A DNA stretch of 36,497 nucleotides from a virus: IMG/VR virus record IMGVR_UViG_3300030116_003819, positions 1-36,497 of that record. One strand, 5' to 3'. Below the pieces are notes generated by a model that did no database searches, was not told where the DNA came from, and saw only the letters and a list, made by a program, of their open reading frames with translations. Shown here piece by piece: positions 763 to 28,639 of the stretch; positions within the stretch are counted from its first letter, which is position 1, and the number at the start of each line of letters is the position of its first letter. A program made the translations under genes and the position numbers.

Positions 763-1400
763 AAGTAGATATTAGACAAATTGCAGTTACACACATTATA
801 AGATCAGGTCAGGCTTTTGGTAAATGTTTGCGAACATTTGATGAAATTTTTATAAATAAAAAATTTGTTAATGATTATGATCTTGAGGTAAATGATACTT
901 TTTTTGCAGAAGTTACTGAAACTTCAGAGGGAGAAAAAAAGACGTTTATCGACAGAGGCAAAGACGTAAGTGATTATAAAATAAAAGCTATATATGATGA
1001 AAACAGTCCATTCATTCATTTGCTGCAAGAATATAAAGCAACAGGAAATTTTAATATAGCTGAGAAAAAACCTGATGAACGGCTTATTAATTGGGATGAG
1101 GCTATTCTTACAATATTAAAAGATAACGATAACTTCATGACAACTAGAGATGTGATTGATGCGTTACAAGAAAAATATAAAGATGCTGGACAGGCACACT
1201 TTACTGGAACGAATATAGGTAATAAGCTGAGCAGCCTACATAGAGTAGGTAAGGTGGCTAGGTTAGCCCTATCTGTAGACGGTGGGAATAAGAGAGTAAG
1301 CGAAGTTTGCTGGTGTCTCTCAGATATTGCCACTGAATTGTATAGAAATAATGTGTTTGGAATTTTTGAGGATGAAGAAAATAACGTGCATCACTTGTAA
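759..1400 (+). CDS. Unknown protein with possible OB-like N-terminus and winged-helix-like C-terminus
   Basis: A 213-residue protein. The start at 759 is preferred over ATG 747 because it overlaps the previous stop as ATGA and has GGAGAG 5-10 bases upstream. Residues 1-70 carry alternating hydrophobic strands with an FINKKFVNDYDLEVND segment, reminiscent of a small nucleic-acid-binding barrel. Residues about 100-190 contain DNFMTTRDVIDAL, then NIGNKLSSLHRVGKVARL, which looks like a helix-turn-helix with a wing. A DNA- or RNA-binding regulator is therefore a reasonable guess but no family is firmly recognised. It is the largest gene in block B. Its last 29 bases overlap the next gene. Confidence 0.7.
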   Translation: MKVDIRQIAVTHIIRSGQAFGKCLRTFDEIFINKKFVNDYDLEVNDTFFAEVTETSEGEKKTFIDRGKDVSDYKIKAIYDENSPFIHLLQEYKATGNFNIAEKKPDERLINWDEAILTILKDNDNFMTTRDVIDALQEKYKDAGQAHFTGTNIGNKLSSLHRVGKVARLALSVDGGNKRVSEVCWCLSDIATELYRNNVFGIFEDEENNVHHL

Positions 1401-1587
1401 TAATACAGGTTATATTGAGGTAGAGGTGGTGTATCCAGTGAGCTTTTTGCCTAACATTGGATACGTCACCAAGCAGAAACAAATTTGCGAGGATTGTGAC
1501 AATGGAACTGAAACCAGAAGACAGGAATCTGAGAGACAGTTTAAAGAGGGAAATACAGAGACTAGAGCCAATGGCGCTATTAGATGA
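1372..1587 (+). CDS. Small putative zinc-binding protein
   Basis: A 71-residue protein with two CxxC knuckles: CITC near residue 6 and CEDC near residue 39, separated by a strand-rich stretch. This resembles a DnaJ-type or rubredoxin-like zinc knuckle. The C-terminal third is charged and low in order. The start at 1372 puts the first knuckle at the very N-terminus, with GAGG directly adjacent. That spacing is tight, so an upstream ATG at 1351 is an alternative. It overlaps the end of the previous gene by 29 bases and the next gene by 86 bases in another frame. Such a long overlap means one of the two may be shorter or not expressed. Four paired cysteines make this one credible. Confidence 0.55.
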   Translation: MKKITCITCNNTGYIEVEVVYPVSFLPNIGYVTKQKQICEDCDNGTETRRQESERQFKEGNTETRANGAIR

Positions 1588-1681
1588 TGCGCCGCCAGAG
1601 ATTAAGCAGCAATTCAGAGAAGCACAAGCTGCAATGAAGGTTCTTATTAGTAAGTTACAGGCAGAGGGCGTAGATATATGA
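1502..1681 (+). CDS. Small helical protein of unknown function
   Basis: A 59-residue, charged and probably all-helical protein (MELKPEDRNLRDSLKRE ... FREAQAAMKVLISKL). The start at 1502 follows GAGGA with about 8 bases spacing. It lies in a different frame across the last 86 bases of the zinc-knuckle gene. Its stop overlaps the next start as ATGA, the coupling seen throughout block B, which supports it being real. No family recognised. A small coiled-coil partner for a neighbouring protein would fit the composition, but that is only inference. Confidence 0.6.
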   Translation: MELKPEDRNLRDSLKREIQRLEPMALLDDAPPEIKQQFREAQAAMKVLISKLQAEGVDI

Positions 1682-1941
1682 GTACGCACACGCTAAAGGC
1701 TAACAGGCGTCACCCAGATGCAGATAGGGATTGCATACAGGTAGGCCATATAACTTTTGAGTTTAGCAGAAAGAATAAAACTTTTGCATTAAAAGCTGGT
1801 GAAGCTGCAAATGCGAAAGACCGTAGCCCTTTGTTTTCAGGGCTTATTGAGAAAGGGATGCACAAAGAGCTATTGCGCTTAGCATCTGTATTTAGACAAA
1901 TAGAGGAGAAAGATAATGAGCCAGTTAAAGGAACTAATTAA
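1678..1941 (+). CDS. Small protein of unknown function
   Basis: An 87-residue protein with a basic N-terminus (MSTHTLKANRRH) and a central strand pair (IQVGHITFEFSRKNKTFALKAG), then two helices. The start overlaps the previous stop as ATGA at 1678 and the coding end overlaps the next gene by 26 bases. No membrane segment, cysteine cluster or nuclease motif is seen. It lies in the middle of the tightly overlapped block B operon, so co-translation with its neighbours is likely. Function not recognised. Confidence 0.65.
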   Translation: MSTHTLKANRRHPDADRDCIQVGHITFEFSRKNKTFALKAGEAANAKDRSPLFSGLIEKGMHKELLRLASVFRQIEEKDNEPVKGTN

Positions 1942-2143
1942 TTCCACAGATATTGTTGAAGTAAATGGTGAGGTGGGCATATCAATGCCTGACAAAAAAT
2001 TTCGCCTAACGCCTGAAGAAACTGAAACTTTTCTAGCACATTTAAAGCAGTTAATGGATGAGGTGGAATTTATAGAAGGAAAAGAATGGAATAAAGATTT
2101 TAAAAATCTTTTAAACAATGCTTTAAGTAAAAAAAATGACTGA
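1916..2143 (+). CDS. Small acidic protein of unknown function
   Basis: A 75-residue acidic protein: MSQLKELINSTDIVEVNGEV, then FRLTPEETETFLAHLKQLMDEVE, then a basic tail NNALSKKND. The start has a strong GAGGAG 9-14 bases upstream. It begins inside the previous gene (26-base overlap) and ends in an 8-base overlap ATGACTGA with the next. The charge pattern suggests a small helical binding protein, for example a host-factor inhibitor, but there is no specific evidence for this. Confidence 0.65.
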   Translation: MSQLKELINSTDIVEVNGEVGISMPDKKFRLTPEETETFLAHLKQLMDEVEFIEGKEWNKDFKNLLNNALSKKND

Positions 2144-2345
2144 AGAAGAGATAGCTGAGATTTGGCGAGACATGGTTAAAGGTGAGAAAGACGCCCATCG
2201 CAGGATGCTGCATGGGTCAGCCAAAAGCATAACGCAAGAGAATAAATTTAAGCTATTAAAAAATAACGGTAAGCGTAATCGTGAGGAAGCCTCTAGTGAA
2301 ACCAATACGAGCAGGAAAAGTATAAAGTTAAAAGGCTTCCTCTAA
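2136..2345 (+). CDS. Small charged protein of unknown function
   Basis: A 69-residue highly charged protein, with an acidic helix at the start (MTEEEIAEIWRDMVKGEKDA) and a basic Ser/Lys-rich tail. The start overlaps the previous stop by 8 bases. The DNA of its last 20 codons contains a 10-base perfect inverted repeat (2283-2292 with 2333-2342), so the end of the gene may fold into a hairpin in the mRNA. No function recognised. Confidence 0.6.
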   Translation: MTEEEIAEIWRDMVKGEKDAHRRMLHGSAKSITQENKFKLLKNNGKRNREEASSETNTSRKSIKLKGFL

Positions 2346-2376
2346 AGTTAGATTAACATAACGAGCAGGATAGGCA

Positions 2377-2583
2377 ATGGAATACTATAGTTTATTAACA
2401 GTGGTCTATGAGCAAATGGGTCATACATGGGAATTTAGCATTTGGTTTCCTAGTGAAGATAAATGCTGGAGCGTGCTAACAGAGGTTAACACGATATATG
2501 ACAGAGTTAAGGCCACAGAAGGCTACTGTCAGGTCACTGAGGTAGCCTCTAAGATAGTTAAGCCAATGATTAGGCCTTGGTGA
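2377..2583 (+). CDS. Small protein of unknown function, last gene of block B
   Basis: A 68-residue aromatic-rich protein (YYSLLTVVYEQMGHTWEFSIWF, here broken by position 2-23) with several Trp and Tyr, so probably a compact beta-rich fold. GCAGGATAGGC gives a Shine-Dalgarno-like site before ATG 2377. It ends with TGA at 2581-2583, directly touching the stop of the convergent endolysin gene at 2584. No family recognised. Confidence 0.65.
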   Translation: MEYYSLLTVVYEQMGHTWEFSIWFPSEDKCWSVLTEVNTIYDRVKATEGYCQVTEVASKIVKPMIRPW

Positions 2584-3036
2584 TTAAACCATTAACTCAA
2601 AGTGTGGAGCATCAATAAATGGACGCCTATTTTGTGAACGTCTAGTATCTATGTAATCGTTCATAGCGCTTTCCATATCACCTTGCCACTGAGCAATATT
2701 AGGCACTGTCCATGCTGCTCCCCATCTAATTGGAACGTCACATACTCTAGCTGCTTCTGCCATTGCGTCAGCTATTTCATCATATAGATTTAGCTCCCAG
2801 CGTCCACCATTCACATAGGCCATTAGATCAACAGCGTGTCCATCAATGTGTTTTGACCGCATGGTTTGGCTAGCACCTTTTGCTACCAAAGCCTTCTGTT
2901 CTTCAATAGTTCTAAGCCCACATATTACTGAAAAGTCTTGCTTACTCACACCTATAGCGTAGCGCACAACAGCATCCATGCGCTCGTCTATGCCCTCTAG
3001 CTTTGCTAAACTACTTTTACCTAACTTGTAGCTCAT
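2584..3036 (-). CDS. Endolysin, M15-type zinc peptidase (VanY / L-Ala-D-Glu peptidase-like)
   Basis: Cell-wall hydrolase expected to cut peptide stems of peptidoglycan in the periplasm at lysis. The 150-residue length fits single-domain phage M15 endolysins such as that of T5. The zinc motif SKHIDGHAVDL gives His63 and Asp70, and APHFEL gives the third ligand, His145. There is no signal peptide, so a holin should release it, and a holin-like gene lies immediately upstream, overlapping as ATGA at 3033-3036 with AGGGA before the start. It is the last gene of the late block. The family call is firm. The exact bond cut is inferred. Confidence 0.9.
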   Translation of the reverse strand: MSYKLGKSSLAKLEGIDERMDAVVRYAIGVSKQDFSVICGLRTIEEQKALVAKGASQTMRSKHIDGHAVDLMAYVNGGRWELNLYDEIADAMAEAARVCDVPIRWGAAWTVPNIAQWQGDMESAMNDYIDTRRSQNRRPFIDAPHFELMV

Positions 3037-3374
3037 TTTTTTAATCCCTTCATTGTTCTAATTCCAAAAGAGGCAGCTATGCTGGCATACATTGCCCAGC
3101 TAAACCACTGTGGCGCAGCCTGTAAATTCTCAAAACCTTGTTTCATATAAGGCTGTAACCAAGGCACAAATGAGCCTAGCACTATAGCAATAAAGCATAG
3201 AGTCCACGCCTCGTCTTTCCAAGAGTCTGCACTGGCCTCTATTGCAGCTTGTTCCCAACTAATCTCACCTGTTGCAATCTTCATTTTGGTTTCGGCTTCA
3301 GCAGCTTTTACCTTTGCCTTACTATCAATGTAAGTTGTAGCTAGACCTGCTACACTTTGTAATATCCCTATCAT
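3033..3374 (-). CDS. Holin, GTA-type 3-TM holin family
   Basis: A 113-residue membrane protein resembling the 3-TM holins described for gene-transfer-agent release. The order is: a short hydrophobic N-terminus (residues 1-15), a charged helical middle containing DSWKDEAWTL, a hydrophobic helix (about 57-74), and a second (about 88-104) with a basic C-terminal tail GLKK. It would form membrane lesions that let the endolysin out. Start and stop overlap both neighbours as ATGA, a compact lysis cassette. Confidence is high for a membrane protein next to an endolysin and moderate for the named family. Confidence 0.78.
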   Translation of the reverse strand: MIGILQSVAGLATTYIDSKAKVKAAEAETKMKIATGEISWEQAAIEASADSWKDEAWTLCFIAIVLGSFVPWLQPYMKQGFENLQAAPQWFSWAMYASIAASFGIRTMKGLKK

Positions 3375-3676
3375 TGCCCTTTACCCATGTTTGTAAATCC
3401 ATAATAAGCAGCGACTATAGCAGCAATACTTACATAGTATATATTGCTCATGCTGCTTAACATTTCTGACGCTCTAGGTAGCTCCATCCACTCTGTAAAC
3501 ACTACACCGAAGGGGAACAAAAGCATACCAGTAAGGCTAAACCATGCCATTCTGCGCTGTGCATCTCGTTTTGCGTCAGCATCAATCATTATTCTACGGC
3601 GATCCTCAAGCATAATTGCACGCTCATCTGGATCAATCTTGCCATTATCGTTTAAGTCGTATTTTGCTTTGGGCAT
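3371..3676 (-). CDS. Small membrane protein with N-terminal EF-hand-like loop
   Basis: A 101-residue protein with a 12-residue canonical calcium loop at residues 7-18 (DLNDNGKIDPDE: Asp7, Asn9, Asn11, Gly12, Ile14, Asp15, Glu18). A basic helix (19-43) and two hydrophobic segments (about 44-60 and 79-95) follow. It lies directly upstream of the holin with an ATGA overlap, so it may be a second holin or an antiholin. I have seen such short EF-loop proteins beside lysis genes of other marine phages, but no role is established. The N-terminal 32 bases overlap the next gene upstream. Whether the loop binds calcium is not known. Confidence 0.7.
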   Translation of the reverse strand: MPKAKYDLNDNGKIDPDERAIMLEDRRRIMIDADAKRDAQRRMAWFSLTGMLLFPFGVVFTEWMELPRASEMLSSMSNIYYVSIAAIVAAYYGFTNMGKGQ

Positions 3677-3854
3677 TTGCGTACTCCTGTACTATCCTAC
3701 GGTTATATCCCAGTATTATTAGTCTACCACGTTTATCATATGCTGCAAACTTCTTACCGTGTTCTATTACTATTGGGTCATGATCTCCAAACACGAAACC
3801 TTCATGCTGTTGTGTGTCACCAGTATGTTTGCTTTCTTTTTTTCTTTTTGGCAC
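3645..3854 (-). CDS. Small basic protein of unknown function
   Basis: A 69-residue protein starting with GTG at 3854 (GAAGA just upstream). The first 12 residues are Lys-rich (MPKRKKESKH), then a compact strand-rich part (KFAAYDKRGRLIILGYNRR) and a basic tail. The 32-base overlap with the downstream EF-loop gene is longer than usual. The region 3855-3936 before it has no visible gene. Function not recognised. Nucleic-acid binding would suit the charge, but this is a guess. Confidence 0.55.
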   Translation of the reverse strand: MPKRKKESKHTGDTQQHEGFVFGDHDPIVIEHGKKFAAYDKRGRLIILGYNRRIVQEYANAQSKIRLKR

Positions 3855-3936
3855 TCTTCAAAATCCGAAAACGTAGCAATCTGATAGTATTTTAAATTAT
3901 CTGTATTAATAAAATGCAGAAAGACTAAAACATAAA

Positions 3937-4392
3937 TCATCTAAAATAATCCCTAACATCAATCCAACCCATATAATCCAAGTACAGCGCAGAGCCAACA
4001 GCGCTGAACAGGAGTAGCACAACAATTCCAGCTATGGTTATCATCAGTTCTTGACGTTCTATAGCCTCACGGCGCAGCCTAGCCTCCATCTCGCGCTTTT
4101 CTTGCAATACTTCTTTTCTAATTCGTAGCAACGCCTGCCACTGAGATAATCCTAGATTATTTGTCACCCACTCGCGTAACTCCTCTTCAGCTTGAGCAGC
4201 CTCACGTTCTTTTGCCCATCTGTCCAACGCTATAGAGTTTACATCTGAACTACTAACGCCCTTCTTTTGCAGTTTTTTCTTAGCCGCATCTGTAGCATCG
4301 AAAAAGTTTCCGATTTCTTTAGATAAAGACGCTACTGTTTTTCCTGCGGCAAGTCCTGTTTTCAGTCCTGCTAGTATTGTTAAAGGGTCTAT
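3937..4392 (-). CDS. Lysis-region coiled-coil protein with one C-terminal membrane segment; no standard start codon
   Basis: The frame is open from 4410 to the stop at 3937. The most conserved-looking part is upstream of the first usable TTG (4227): it reads DPLTILAGLKTGLAAGKTVASLS then EIGNFFDATDAAKKKL when split at the helix break. That matches the style of a protein common in marine phage lysis regions. It is followed by a charged coiled coil (to about residue 125) and a single membrane helix MITIAGIVVLLLFSAVGSAL, then a short tail. No ATG, GTG or TTG exists between the upstream stop and codon 4227. I place the start at ATA 4392 because GGGA lies 7 bases before it. The alternatives are a sequence error or TTG 4227 (96 residues). 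Possible spanin or holin accessory role. Confidence 0.55.
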   Translation of the reverse strand: MDPLTILAGLKTGLAAGKTVASLSKEIGNFFDATDAAKKKLQKKGVSSSDVNSIALDRWAKEREAAQAEEELREWVTNNLGLSQWQALLRIRKEVLQEKREMEARLRREAIERQELMITIAGIVVLLLFSAVGSALYLDYMGWIDVRDYFR

Positions 4393-15316: not shown

Positions 15317-15664
15317 TTAATATGTAGACAGCGCTACCCTCTTCCAAATTGCTGTTGATCCATCATGTGCGGCAGTGCAGATATAAATATAATTAGCATC
15401 CCAAGCTATCATTCCCGCAACATCACCAGCCGCACCAGTGCTACTACTTGGCGTTGCTTGCTTCATAGCAACCTGTCTAAAAGCACCATCGCTTGATACG
15501 ACAGGATAGTTGTTAGCATCATCCCATAAAAATATACCGTTTTCGGCAGGAATATCATCAGATTGTTTAAAAAATAATTTACCTAAGTTTCTACTTAGAA
15601 ACAGGTTTATTTCTCTGCCCCACTGACGAATATCTGTACCTATAACTGGCGGTGTAACTGGCAC
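15317..15664 (-). CDS. Small tail-associated structural protein
   Basis: A 115-residue protein starting with GTG at 15664, overlapping the previous stop by one base. The C-terminal segment GMIAWDANYIYICTAAHDG followed by IWKRVALSTY is a beta motif frequent in tail proteins of marine phages, where it often ends fibers or caps. The N-terminal part is a helix with RQWGREINLFLSRN. It is likely a tail component placed next to the nozzle gene. No enzymatic signature. Confidence 0.65.
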   Translation of the reverse strand: MPVTPPVIGTDIRQWGREINLFLSRNLGKLFFKQSDDIPAENGIFLWDDANNYPVVSSDGAFRQVAMKQATPSSSTGAAGDVAGMIAWDANYIYICTAAHDGSTAIWKRVALSTY

Positions 15665-17490
15665 TATCTACGCCCTCCAGCTTTTGTTTCTAATCTCATA
15701 GTTCCAACTCGCCAAGCAGTAGCTTTATCGCCATCAACTCTCATTCTCATTTGCCGACCAGTAAATCGTAAAGATGTTGGGTTGCTTGGGTTAAATGGGC
15801 CATGCGTTGTTTCTGTATCGTTAGGATGAAACCTAGTTTTAAATTTTAAATCAACATCACCTTGCGTTAGCTCATCAGGAATAACTGATGTAACTTTTGC
15901 AACCTGATCACCATTACCAATAGATATTGGACCTGTTTCACAAAAAATAGAACCACTGTCGTAGTTTAAGCCTTGCTCATGGTTATAAATTACAACTGGC
16001 TCAATAACATTTATAGTCCCACCCATACCACTATGGTTTGTACAAAAATAATAAAGAGTTGAGGGCGTACTGTCCGAAACAACTATTTGCACATATGCCC
16101 CTGCCGTACCTGCCGTACCGACTATTGTTACGCCAGTAGTATAATTTGAGCCGCCACCATGTGTGCCATTTGACGTTGTGGAAAACTGTAGTGGGTGCGT
16201 ATCATTAGAGGCATCAGATTGATCAAATTTATAAGTGTTACCCTTTTTAAGGGTTAGCGTTGGAGCAGAGCCAGAATGATCTGATATGTAATATTTATTA
16301 CCGCCATCATCTGCTACCGTTACATTATAAGTAATTGTTTCAGAGTATTCACCACCCATAATAGGCGTTCTAAATACACCTCTTGGCACGCCACCTGTTC
16401 TTGAAAGATTACCTATAAGCCAATGATTTTCTAACAAATCTACAGCAACATATCGGTCTATTTCTAAACTATTTGCAGATGGATAAAACCACCAAACTTC
16501 ACTAAATTCAGTATTGCTTAATGCCCATATTTTAGATTGTTGGTTTACGTTAATATCATCAAAAACATAGTCATGAACTTCGCAAGGTAATTCTTTTACT
16601 GAGTTTCCGTCAAAACCAAAAAAACCTTTTTGCCCCATCCAGAACGCACCCATGTCAGTATCAACAGCCGACATACGCGAAACTGCACCACAAGATGTGC
16701 CAACTCGATTAAAACCATAAACATAAGGTGGTCCAAGATATTTTGCTGAGAACGCATCGCTATCAGTAATAATTAATGTTTGGCCTCTGGTGTTTAAGCC
16801 CTGCATAATCTGACCAGTTGTTTGCAAGGTAAAGTCACCTGCCTCATTTGTTGCCGCTGGCGTCCAAGTTGTGTTTGCTTCTTTGTCGCACCACTGAACT
16901 TTTCTAGGTTCACCACCTGCTCCTAATAAAAATATAAAACGCTCTTCAGTCACAACTAAACCAAGATTGTTTGTTGGAGCGTTTGCCACTGGAGCAGCAA
17001 CGGCTGACGATCCAAGTTGCCATTCCACAAGCGTTCCTGTGTCGTAATGTACACCAACTAAGTATTGACCAAAGTTATCAAGTGACCAAGAGGTTGCTTC
17101 TGAATATGTGCCTGTTGCTGGTCTTTGTGTGCCAAAATATCCAGTGCCGTAAAATCCACCACCAAATCCTAAGTTTTGTGCAGCATCTTCACGGCCTGTA
17201 CTCATTGTGGCTGGAGTTATGTCGTAAGCTGTTCCTGCACCTGTCATAGCAGTTAGCTTGTCATGACTGCCAGCAGCAAAATAAGCTGTTCCATTATTAC
17301 TTTCCCAAGCGTGTGCGCCTCGAATGGGATTGGCAGAAAACCCATCTTTAAAAGATTGCCAACCACCTATTGGACGTAATGAGCCATCACGCCACCTAAC
17401 TAAGCTACCATCACGCCATCTGTTACTAGCGTCAAACTCTGTACCGTTACGATAAAAACCAGCTTTTAATTTTAAAGGAACTAACGCCAT
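15664..17490 (-). CDS. Nozzle-like tail protein with inserted cupredoxin-type domain
   Basis: A 608-residue structural protein. The N-terminal part (MALVPLKLKAGFYRNGTEFD, RWRDGSLRPIGGWQ) and the C-terminal end (FTGRQMRMRVDGDKATAWRV, then GTMRLETKAGGRR) are typical of tail hub or nozzle proteins of P22/SU10-like phages. Between about residues 390 and 500 lies a separate strand-rich module with THPLQF (His432) and YYFCTNHSGMGG (Cys483, His486, Met489). The spacing and ligand order His...Cys-x2-His-x2-Met match type I copper sites of plastocyanin-like folds. Related modules occur in marine phage structural proteins, but copper binding is untested as far as I know. The start overlaps the previous gene by 10 bases with GGGGG upstream. 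Confidence 0.8.
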   Translation of the reverse strand: MALVPLKLKAGFYRNGTEFDASNRWRDGSLVRWRDGSLRPIGGWQSFKDGFSANPIRGAHAWESNNGTAYFAAGSHDKLTAMTGAGTAYDITPATMSTGREDAAQNLGFGGGFYGTGYFGTQRPATGTYSEATSWSLDNFGQYLVGVHYDTGTLVEWQLGSSAVAAPVANAPTNNLGLVVTEERFIFLLGAGGEPRKVQWCDKEANTTWTPAATNEAGDFTLQTTGQIMQGLNTRGQTLIITDSDAFSAKYLGPPYVYGFNRVGTSCGAVSRMSAVDTDMGAFWMGQKGFFGFDGNSVKELPCEVHDYVFDDINVNQQSKIWALSNTEFSEVWWFYPSANSLEIDRYVAVDLLENHWLIGNLSRTGGVPRGVFRTPIMGGEYSETITYNVTVADDGGNKYYISDHSGSAPTLTLKKGNTYKFDQSDASNDTHPLQFSTTSNGTHGGGSNYTTGVTIVGTAGTAGAYVQIVVSDSTPSTLYYFCTNHSGMGGTINVIEPVVIYNHEQGLNYDSGSIFCETGPISIGNGDQVAKVTSVIPDELTQGDVDLKFKTRFHPNDTETTHGPFNPSNPTSLRFTGRQMRMRVDGDKATAWRVGTMRLETKAGGRR

Positions 17491-18299
17491 TGCGCCCCCA
17501 CCATAACAAACAAACCATTGTGAATTGAACCTACAGAACCTACAGAATTATCATTTGTAACGGTATAAGTAACATTACCAGAAGGTATTCCTGTTTTTGA
17601 TACCGTAAAACTTGAGCTACCTGTTTGTGAGTCTGTCCTTATAGTAGCGCTTTGATTTACTGTGTTATTCCCAGAATAAGAACGACCTGCAACAATGATT
17701 GCTCCATTACTATCTTGTCCATTAAACGTGATACCATGAGAAGTAGCAGGGCTGCTCACGTTATGAGTGCTAACTGTTATTGCAGGGGTTGAACTAATAA
17801 AGTTTGTTAGTTCAAATGCTTGAAACTCTGATGGACCTGCTCCTGTTCCAAAACCTGCTCCTGTTACTGCTAATGAACCTGATGCGGTTGTTTCCTTATA
17901 AAAAATAGCAACATTACCGCCCCTGTTACCACTGTCTATTGATTTTAAATCAACAGCCTTAGTTAGAGATGTACCCCCAACGCTTACAGTGCTAATTGGC
18001 GTTGATGATGTTGTTTGTTGAGAAATAACAGCAATAACAATAATTTTATTTCCGCTAGAAAATGTGTGCGTGCCGTTTGGAAAACTACTTGTGGCCGTTG
18101 CATCACGACCTATAAAGTTTACGGCAACTGGCGTGTTGCTAGCACCATACCATTCACTAAAGCTCATATTTGTGCTTGCAGATTTACTAATAAGACCTCT
18201 TATATCACTATCATTTATAGACACTTCACTACCTGATGAACCGCCTATCTCAACGTGCATTTGGTCTAAACTTATTGCGCCACTACTCGGCAGAGCCAT
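17481..18299 (-). CDS. Tail fiber-like structural protein with MALPSSG anchor
   Basis: A 272-residue Ser/Thr/Gly-rich protein. The N-terminus MALPSSGAISLDQMHVEIGG, then MSFSEWYGAS, is a recurrent attachment module at the start of marine phage tail proteins. Residues about 55-265 are beta-rich with Ser/Thr-rich strands, like an adhesion or fiber domain. No collar, S74 or enzymatic motif is visible. It begins inside the end of the S74 tail gene (17-base overlap) and runs into the nozzle gene. Probably a receptor-contact or fiber-accessory protein. Confidence 0.65.
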   Translation of the reverse strand: MALPSSGAISLDQMHVEIGGSSGSEVSINDSDIRGLISKSASTNMSFSEWYGASNTPVAVNFIGRDATATSSFPNGTHTFSSGNKIIVIAVISQQTTSSTPISTVSVGGTSLTKAVDLKSIDSGNRGGNVAIFYKETTASGSLAVTGAGFGTGAGPSEFQAFELTNFISSTPAITVSTHNVSSPATSHGITFNGQDSNGAIIVAGRSYSGNNTVNQSATIRTDSQTGSSSFTVSKTGIPSGNVTYTVTNDNSVGSVGSIHNGLFVMVGAQWR

Positions 18300-19107
18300 T
18301 TTTTAGTTCCTCTATCTCTGCTTTTAGTTCTTTGATAGCTTCTATTAAAAGACCATGTAATTGATCATATTGAACAGTCTTATATTCAACACCTTCTTGA
18401 CCATTAAAAACTAGTTTTTGATTTTGTACAGCCGAAGGTAAAACATTCTCTACTTCTTGCGCCACAACTCCTGCGCTTTGCTTTCCATCATCGTTGTAAG
18501 TAAAAGTATAACCATTTATTTGCGATACTTTTTCTAACGCATTTTCTATTTTATTTATATCGTGCTTTAATCTTTGGTCTGAAACTGTTGTTGAATAAGC
18601 GGTTACATTACCATCAACGTGCAGATCACCGCCATCTGTCAGCCTCATATCTTCTGCGCCAGCAGTATAAAAACGCATACCTACGTCAGCATCATAAAAT
18701 ACATAATCAGCGGTGTTGCCAGTATAAACATCTACGTTGCCGCTTTTTCGCATATCATTATTTAACGTAAAGGTTAAATCGTAGGGGTCTGCATCTGAAC
18801 CTGTTGATGTATCAGTCCAATCAATATCAATACCGCCACCCTCAACAAACTTTACCTCTTTACCACCTGCAATAGTTACTTCTGTTCCATCGCCATCCTC
18901 CAAAACAAATCCAGTAATTGCATTTGTAAGGTCTGAGGCTGTAGAGGTTACAGTAGTGCCATTTATGGTAAGTGTTGTTAAATCAGGCGCTAGTGTTCCA
19001 GATGTTCCATTAGCTGCATTTACTATAGTATCGAGAGCGGTGTTGATTGTGTCACCCCACGTTCCCTCACTACCGCCAACCGTAGGTTTTGTTATACTAA
19101 TAGCCAT
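18283..19107 (-). CDS. Tail fiber with C-terminal S74 self-cleaving chaperone domain
   Basis: A 274-residue protein. The N-terminal part (MAISITKPTVGGSEGTWGDT) is a tail-attachment style found in marine phages, and the middle is beta-rich. The C-terminal about 100 residues form an intramolecular chaperone of the Peptidase_S74 family: SDQRLKHDI gives the Ser176/Lys181 pair that matches the Ser-Lys dyad of endosialidase-type chaperones, followed by GVVAQEV and VQYDQLHGLLIEAIKEL. The domain helps the fiber trimerise and then cuts itself off. The start has AGGAG 8 bases upstream. Confident call for the domain, moderate for the fiber identity. Confidence 0.85.
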   Translation of the reverse strand: MAISITKPTVGGSEGTWGDTINTALDTIVNAANGTSGTLAPDLTTLTINGTTVTSTASDLTNAITGFVLEDGDGTEVTIAGGKEVKFVEGGGIDIDWTDTSTGSDADPYDLTFTLNNDMRKSGNVDVYTGNTADYVFYDADVGMRFYTAGAEDMRLTDGGDLHVDGNVTAYSTTVSDQRLKHDINKIENALEKVSQINGYTFTYNDDGKQSAGVVAQEVENVLPSAVQNQKLVFNGQEGVEYKTVQYDQLHGLLIEAIKELKAEIEELKNGSAE

Positions 19108-27736: not shown

Positions 27737-28639
27737 ATGGACAAAAAGACAACTCAAATAATGACAGAGATAACAGCCAGAGTAACATCTGACATGGCAA
27801 CAGCAGGCCTTGATTGGGTAAAACCTTGGGTCAATGTATTGCAGCACAATCAACCAATGAGTGCTAGAAAACATCAATATAGAGGTATCAATCGAATTAA
27901 TTTATCTATGATAATGGCCGCTAGAGGTTACACATCACCTGTTTTTGGAACTTGGAATCAATGGACTCAAGACTTAGGTTATGAATTGGAAGGTGCAAAG
28001 GGTAAAGGTATCAGAATTGTTTTCTGGTCACTCATTAAATATGAAGACAAGAAAACAGGTGAAGAAAAGGTTTATCCTAAATGGAACTCTTGGGTGGTTT
28101 TCAACTCTCAATATGTTAAAGGCTGGAAAGGTGATTTTTTACCTGAAGAAAAAAAGCTGTCTCAAGATTGGAGCGACATTATAGACGCTGAAAACCTTGC
28201 CGAGCTATCAGGTGCTAAATTTGTAAATGAAGACGCTAACAGCGCCTACTATCGCCCATCTAATGACACAATCAATATGCCAGCTAAAGAGCAATTTAAA
28301 ACGGCGTCTGGCTACTATGGAACACTGTTTCATGAGCTTGCCCATTGGACAGGCAGCAAAAACAGATTAGACCGTAAATTCGGGACTCGCTTTGGCTCTG
28401 AGGGCTATGCTTTTGAAGAACTAATTGCCGAGCTAACAAGCGCTATCTTATCAGGTCTAACTAAAGTTGACGCTGAGCCTCGTGCAGATCATGCCAAGTA
28501 TTTAAACGGCTGGATCAAGTGCCTTAAAGATGATCCTGAGGCCATCTCTAAGGCCTGCGGCGCTGCTGATAAGGCTGCTACGTTCATTTTAGAAGCTGCT
28601 GAGCAATCAGAAGCAGAAAATCAAAAAGTAGCGTCCTAG
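27737..28639 (+). CDS. ArdC-type anti-restriction protein with zincin domain
   Basis: A 300-residue protein of two parts. The N-terminal ArdC ssDNA-binding domain spans about residues 1-135: WVKPWVNVLQHNQPMSARKH, then YRGINRINLSMI and TWNQWTQDLGYELEGAKGKG, a well-known pattern. A C-terminal zincin-like metallopeptidase (about 190-270) has the HELAH zinc motif (His199, Glu200, His203) and the later helix FEELIAELTSA supplying the third ligand. ArdC proteins of plasmids block type I and II restriction of incoming DNA, and phage versions are assumed to protect injected DNA or act on host proteins. It is the second gene of block D, with AAAGAAAGGTTAAAAAAAATG before the start (19 bases apart). The stop lies in a hairpin loop. 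Confidence 0.88.
   Translation: MDKKTTQIMTEITARVTSDMATAGLDWVKPWVNVLQHNQPMSARKHQYRGINRINLSMIMAARGYTSPVFGTWNQWTQDLGYELEGAKGKGIRIVFWSLIKYEDKKTGEEKVYPKWNSWVVFNSQYVKGWKGDFLPEEKKLSQDWSDIIDAENLAELSGAKFVNEDANSAYYRPSNDTINMPAKEQFKTASGYYGTLFHELAHWTGSKNRLDRKFGTRFGSEGYAFEELIAELTSAILSGLTKVDAEPRADHAKYLNGWIKCLKDDPEAISKACGAADKAATFILEAAEQSEAENQKVAS

Follow-up and report, generated by a model that had tools for sequence, protein, structure and literature searches.

The tail nozzle protein encoded in the stretch of viral DNA analysed here (36,497 nucleotides in full length, hereafter called the window) contains a domain which, as is well supported by computation, has the cupredoxin fold and the ligand set of a type-1 copper site; copper binding by the domain and its role are inferred. 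The identity of the carrier as a nozzle, the insertion of the domain, its fold, the selection on the four ligands and the mobility of the domain are each supported by computation. Taken together, it is probable that a mobile cupredoxin domain situated in a nozzle hairpin binds copper on the outside of the tail and serves virion stability and/or host contact, a reading that is based on computation and on no experiment. The relevant features of the window are as follows.

15664..17490, minus strand: tail nozzle protein (P22 gp10 / T7 gp12 type) of 608 aa with the inserted cupredoxin domain, assigned by PHROG 3287, matches to solved nozzles, and the full-length model with Foldseek
16345..17490, minus strand: N-terminal nozzle part, residues 1-382, from alignment with the insert-free relatives L002-L005
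16000..16344, minus strand: inserted cupredoxin-like domain, residues 383-497 (~115 residues), from a family profile match (E 1.2e-55), a model of pLDDT 96 and PDB fold matches
16195..16197, minus strand: codon of His432 (CAC), predicted copper ligand 1, invariant, codon different among relatives
16042..16044, minus strand: codon of Cys483 (TGT), predicted copper ligand 2, invariant, at the end of the next-to-last strand
16033..16035, minus strand: codon of His486 (CAT), predicted copper ligand 3, invariant, in the loop joining the last two strands
16024..16026, minus strand: codon of Met489 (ATG), predicted axial copper ligand, invariant, in C-x2-H-x2-M spacing
15667..15999, minus strand: C-terminal nozzle part, residues 498-608, from alignment with L002-L005

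The 608-aa ORF at 15664-17490 on the minus strand is the podovirus tail nozzle of a bacterial virus. Residues 5-378 matched PHROG 3287 (E 3e-77), and the sequence matches of the ORF were P22-type 'phage stabilization' proteins and, among solved nozzles, the Pa223 tail protein (E 2e-27) and the VP1 nozzle (8e-17). The full-length model had a pLDDT of 87.6, and its best fold matches in Foldseek were the podovirus nozzles of Pa223, VP1, SU10 and A4, P22 gp10 and T7 gp12. Nearby genes encode portal, scaffold, head, ejection and tail fibre proteins, and both this context and the matches in sequence and fold place the ORF among the podovirus tail nozzles. The closest annotated relatives are Octadecabacter virus DB2 for the nozzle and uncultured Manatee Spring phages for the terminase. 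On the minus strand, a 272-aa protein (17481-18299) overlaps the start of the nozzle gene by ten bases and has a family match limited to its first 69 residues (PHROG 26746, unknown function); the CDS at 18283-19107, also on the minus strand, encodes a tail fibre protein with a C-terminal Peptidase_S74 (endosialidase-type) chaperone domain. Farther away, the CDS at 27737-28639 on the plus strand matches the anti-restriction family PHROG 7245 (E 8e-68).

The carrier is of the same kind as the P22 gp10 and T7 gp12 nozzles by sequence and fold, but most relatives examined have a short turn in place of the domain. The site is 117-126 residues long in domain carriers and only 7-10 in most insert-free nozzle relatives, and in the full-length model the insert is bounded by the nozzle strands 377-381 and 499-504. 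These lengths, together with the nozzle fold matches, bear out a preliminary description of the window, made from the sequence alone, in which the flanks were read as one continuous nozzle and the module as inserted. The same description placed the domain at 15985-16320; the domain is indeed there, but those boundaries clip its first strand and run a few residues too far at the other end, the profile giving 16000-16344. On the nozzle tree, two changes are required to explain the carriers at this site, and a nozzle without the insert (L121) is nested beside two that have it (L119 and L120). A second insertion site lies after about residue 170, where the domain is within a larger added region; three nozzles (L169-L171) have the domain at this second site only, and one (L026) has copies at both. 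The ORFs starting at 1556 in L026 and at 832 in L169 are such second-site carriers in the same nozzle family. In distant relatives (L177-L188), other inserts of 24-60 residues were observed at the first site, which, judged from the alignments, looks like a position that tolerates additions. Since additions are tolerated there and the nozzle is the DNA channel, the domain is inferred to face outward, and its location on the outside of the tail is very likely.

In cupredoxins, one ligand His stands before a strand, the ligand Cys ends the next-to-last strand, and a His and a Met are in the loop that follows. The predicted ligands of the window domain are held by the sequence YYFCTNHSGMGG, in which H432 is predicted to precede a strand directly, C483 to end the next-to-last strand, and the loop leading into the last strand to contain H486 and M489. 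Two tests of membership in the cupredoxin superfamily, the beta-sandwich fold and the order His, Cys, His and Met at the right strands, were met. The model of the domain, made by AlphaFold2 from 36 family sequences, had a pLDDT of 96 and a pTM of 0.89. When it was compared with the PDB by Foldseek, cupredoxin-fold copper proteins made up 49 of the 50 best matches, including the first 27; among them were rusticyanin, AcoP, pseudoazurin, laccases and other multicopper oxidases, all with a probability near 1, although the scores were modest (TM-scores of only about 0.5 to 0.6, E about 1e-3). The preliminary description had proposed a cupredoxin-like domain with copper ligands at His432, Cys483, His486 and Met489 and had suggested structure prediction as a check. 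The four residues are exactly at these positions and, as an indirect form of that check, they fall at the cupredoxin places on the predicted strands; the model, its structural matches, the profile comparisons and the conservation pattern all point to a cupredoxin-like domain with a complete type-1 ligand set.

Sequence homology of the window domain to known copper proteins is weak. Pfam found no copper family in the full-length 608-aa protein, and the isolated domain matched PF00127 below threshold (12.9 bits (0.15), cut-off 21.2). A phmmer match of the window domain in the PDB to ribosomal L31 (E 0.16) was judged to be due to chance. The close-family profile gave no significant match in the PDB, pseudoazurin being ranked second, and in hhalign its alignment with cupredoxins covered the last 29 columns only. 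Divergent cyanophage copies, obtained by family-profile search, gave stronger results: a P-HM1 copy matched plastocyanin 1b3i (4.9e-5) in an alignment that pairs the C, H and M, the best phage copy reached 20.9 bits for PF00127 (cut-off 21.2), and PF13473 was matched with an E of 2.9e-4. An eleven-sequence profile of divergent copies found copper nitrite reductase, plastocyanin, rusticyanin and amicyanin in the PDB at 1e-5 to 1e-3, and hhalign of the divergent-copy profile against 19 bacterial cupredoxins of the PF00127 class gave 95.6% and E 1e-8. The divergent copies used were selected from motif-keeping hits, a choice that favours the match. The third test, significant homology to known cupredoxins, is thus unmet by the window domain alone and met via the divergent phage copies, and by sequence comparison the domain family is linked through them to plastocyanin, rusticyanin and amicyanin with significant E-values. 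Because no phage copy reached the PF00127 cut-off, the domain is filed as a superfamily relative and not as a member of PF00127.

The four ligands are strongly conserved. H432, C483, H486 and M489 are the sole invariant positions in 44 sequences of <70% identity from many carrier proteins, so the motif of the domain is not a chance occurrence; in 29 sequences of <60% identity, Y481 is the only other invariant position. Both sets contain only matches reaching profile position 98, and truncated copies and the degenerate copy of L080 were excluded. The motif in 82 distinct copies was C-x2-H-x2-M in 74 and C-x2-H-x3-M in six; it was truncated in one and absent in one. A tblastn search gave 14 phage loci, and these and three loci in bacterial assemblies all keep the four residues. 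Third codon positions differ at the Cys and both His ligands, as expected under purifying selection. One search pattern included C and H, so selection bias was possible; since the motif is mostly or wholly kept also in the tblastn hits, in a scan without the C-H-M part and in whole-genome profile hits, this bias does not explain the conservation. Diverged copies without the motif were seen in L249 (first copy), L252, L257, L258 and L259 and in the second copy of L080, where all ligands are lost. That some cyanophage copies lack the motif indicates that the fold is usable without metal, and these copies together with that of L080 suggest a metal-free branch of the domain family.

The window domain matched 86 of 50,697 phage records, which by name are all phages of Synechococcus, Prochlorococcus, Pelagibacter or Methylophilales or are from seawater. 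One deep copy matched 167 records, and all except one of them (166/167) are cyanophages or marine viruses. Among the PHROG families matched by the carriers are tail fibre and baseplate wedge, besides other virion families, and up to five domain matches were found within single cyanophage genomes. Cultured carriers include the Pelagibacter phage Baldr and the cyanophages S-TIM5, P-HM1 and P-SSM2. The domain family is mobile: it occupies two sites in nozzles and is present in proteins of fibres and baseplates as well, with marine phages as the source of nearly all carriers. The preliminary description needs a correction here, in that the domain is not peculiar to the phage of the window: it is widespread in tail and other virion proteins of marine phages. 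A search for a plasmid source of the domain gave no plasmid matches. Three bacterial assemblies matched (L086, L087 and L088); in L088, a SAR11 single-cell genome, the domain is in a phage-like stretch. In L086, a single-cell genome of an uncultured alphaproteobacterium, the domain is in a repeat-rich and perhaps secreted protein of 930 residues (1173-3965). No description of cupredoxin domains in phage tails was found in the open-access papers searched.

The phage domain resembles rusticyanin, plastocyanin, amicyanin and pseudoazurin (PF00127 Copper-bind) in fold, in the strand positions of the ligands and in the His/Cys/His/Met set, and the C-x2-H-x2-M spacing of amicyanin is the same as its own. 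It differs from these small blue copper proteins, whose kind serves photosynthesis and respiration, in that it sits in a hairpin of a virion protein without a known electron-transfer partner and in that most phage copies have a Pro after the ligand His. A cupredoxin coded by ocean phages is already known, namely the plastocyanin gene petE of cyanophages (PMC5083919). Its product is a stand-alone protein thought to serve electron transport in the infected cell and not the particle, whereas the domain studied here is internal to the 608-aa nozzle and so does not qualify as a stand-alone plastocyanin, a separate small protein. Metal is also held on phage tails by the iron HxH sites in the tail fibres of T4 (gp37) and marine phages (PMC11705849), but the metal, the motif and the fold are different, and those sites are in trimeric fibres rather than in a globular insert. 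With invariant H, C, H and M and no HxH pair, the domain does not meet the test for an HxH iron fibre site. Ig-like decoration domains of tailed phages are mobile beta-sandwich modules found across unrelated virion proteins. The copper-site domain is like them in mobility and beta-sandwich structure and differs in its cupredoxin fold and invariant metal-ligand set.

It is conceivable that the fold is used without metal, as a protein- or sugar-binding beta-sandwich comparable to ephrins and Ig-like phage domains, and that the four residues are left over from an ancestor or contribute to packing. The few motif-less cyanophage copies are still in virion proteins, and the L080 copy without any ligand fits this idea as well. 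A remnant would drift; instead, no positions in the whole family are as well conserved as the four ligands, whatever the carrier and even at low identity, and they persist while the length of the loop from C to M changes. We consider metal-free use of the domain unlikely. The site might instead hold zinc, iron or some other metal, iron being the one held by the HxH sites of tail fibres; iron sites of this kind are known and have been proposed for marine phages (PMC11705849). Yet a Cys, two His and a Met in a cupredoxin fold are the type-1 copper set, the profile searches led to copper proteins and there is no HxH motif, which makes another metal very doubtful.

Two further possibilities accept copper and differ on its use. 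Copper on the tail could act as a Trojan horse, a bait by which the phage docks to copper-uptake or copper-handling proteins of the host. The near confinement of the domain to ocean phages with varied hosts agrees with this, as does the iron version proposed for marine phages (PMC11705849); with no known receptor, and with carriers at very different positions in the virion, many of which are not obvious first-contact proteins, the idea appears improbable. Alternatively, a change in the state of the copper at the host envelope could trigger ejection or let the tail sense copper or redox conditions. Redox activity is usual for type-1 sites, and electron carriers have this fold and ligand set, but no redox partner was recognised among those window proteins that were searched, and nozzles of the same clade without the insert are evidently functional (L121), so that a redox function seems most improbable.

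Copper binding by the window domain is likely, as an inference without binding data. We propose that a blue-copper domain of ~115 residues entered the hairpin of a P22 gp10-like nozzle and that each subunit would most likely bind one copper ion via His432, Cys483, His486 and Met489; if the nozzle is hexameric like those of P22 and T7, there would be six copper sites per virion. Copper would probably be loaded once lysis has freed the virion from the reducing cytosol of the host. The metal may then lock the fold, and the module may aid the stability of the virion and/or its contact with the host surface, a role like that proposed for Ig-like phage domains; stability and host binding, along with copper sensing, were also put forward as possibilities in the preliminary description. 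The spread across unrelated phages of one environment fits a seawater-linked or general surface-contact role better than a single receptor. The role in stability or host contact is inferred without direct evidence and is tentative, nearly as open to doubt as to belief. A bolder idea, that the virions of marine phages carry type-1 copper active in infection, acquired outside the cell and then, at the host envelope, either reduced or recognised, or else used in docking to copper-handling proteins of the host, and that infectivity depends on the copper chemistry of seawater, is in our opinion rather unlikely.

Direct tests are feasible, since the domain is small enough to be purified and carrier phages are in culture. 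The recurrence of the domain in unrelated phages suggests, as yet untested, that many such ocean phage particles carry copper. If copper is bound, many ocean phages would be copper-carrying particles, and the recurring domain would receive a name where genome records and PHROGs now list only tail fibre or unknown. Bound copper would also extend the known biology of phage tails by a second metal, and perhaps by redox chemistry, and would set a copper parallel beside the iron hypothesis on marine viruses.
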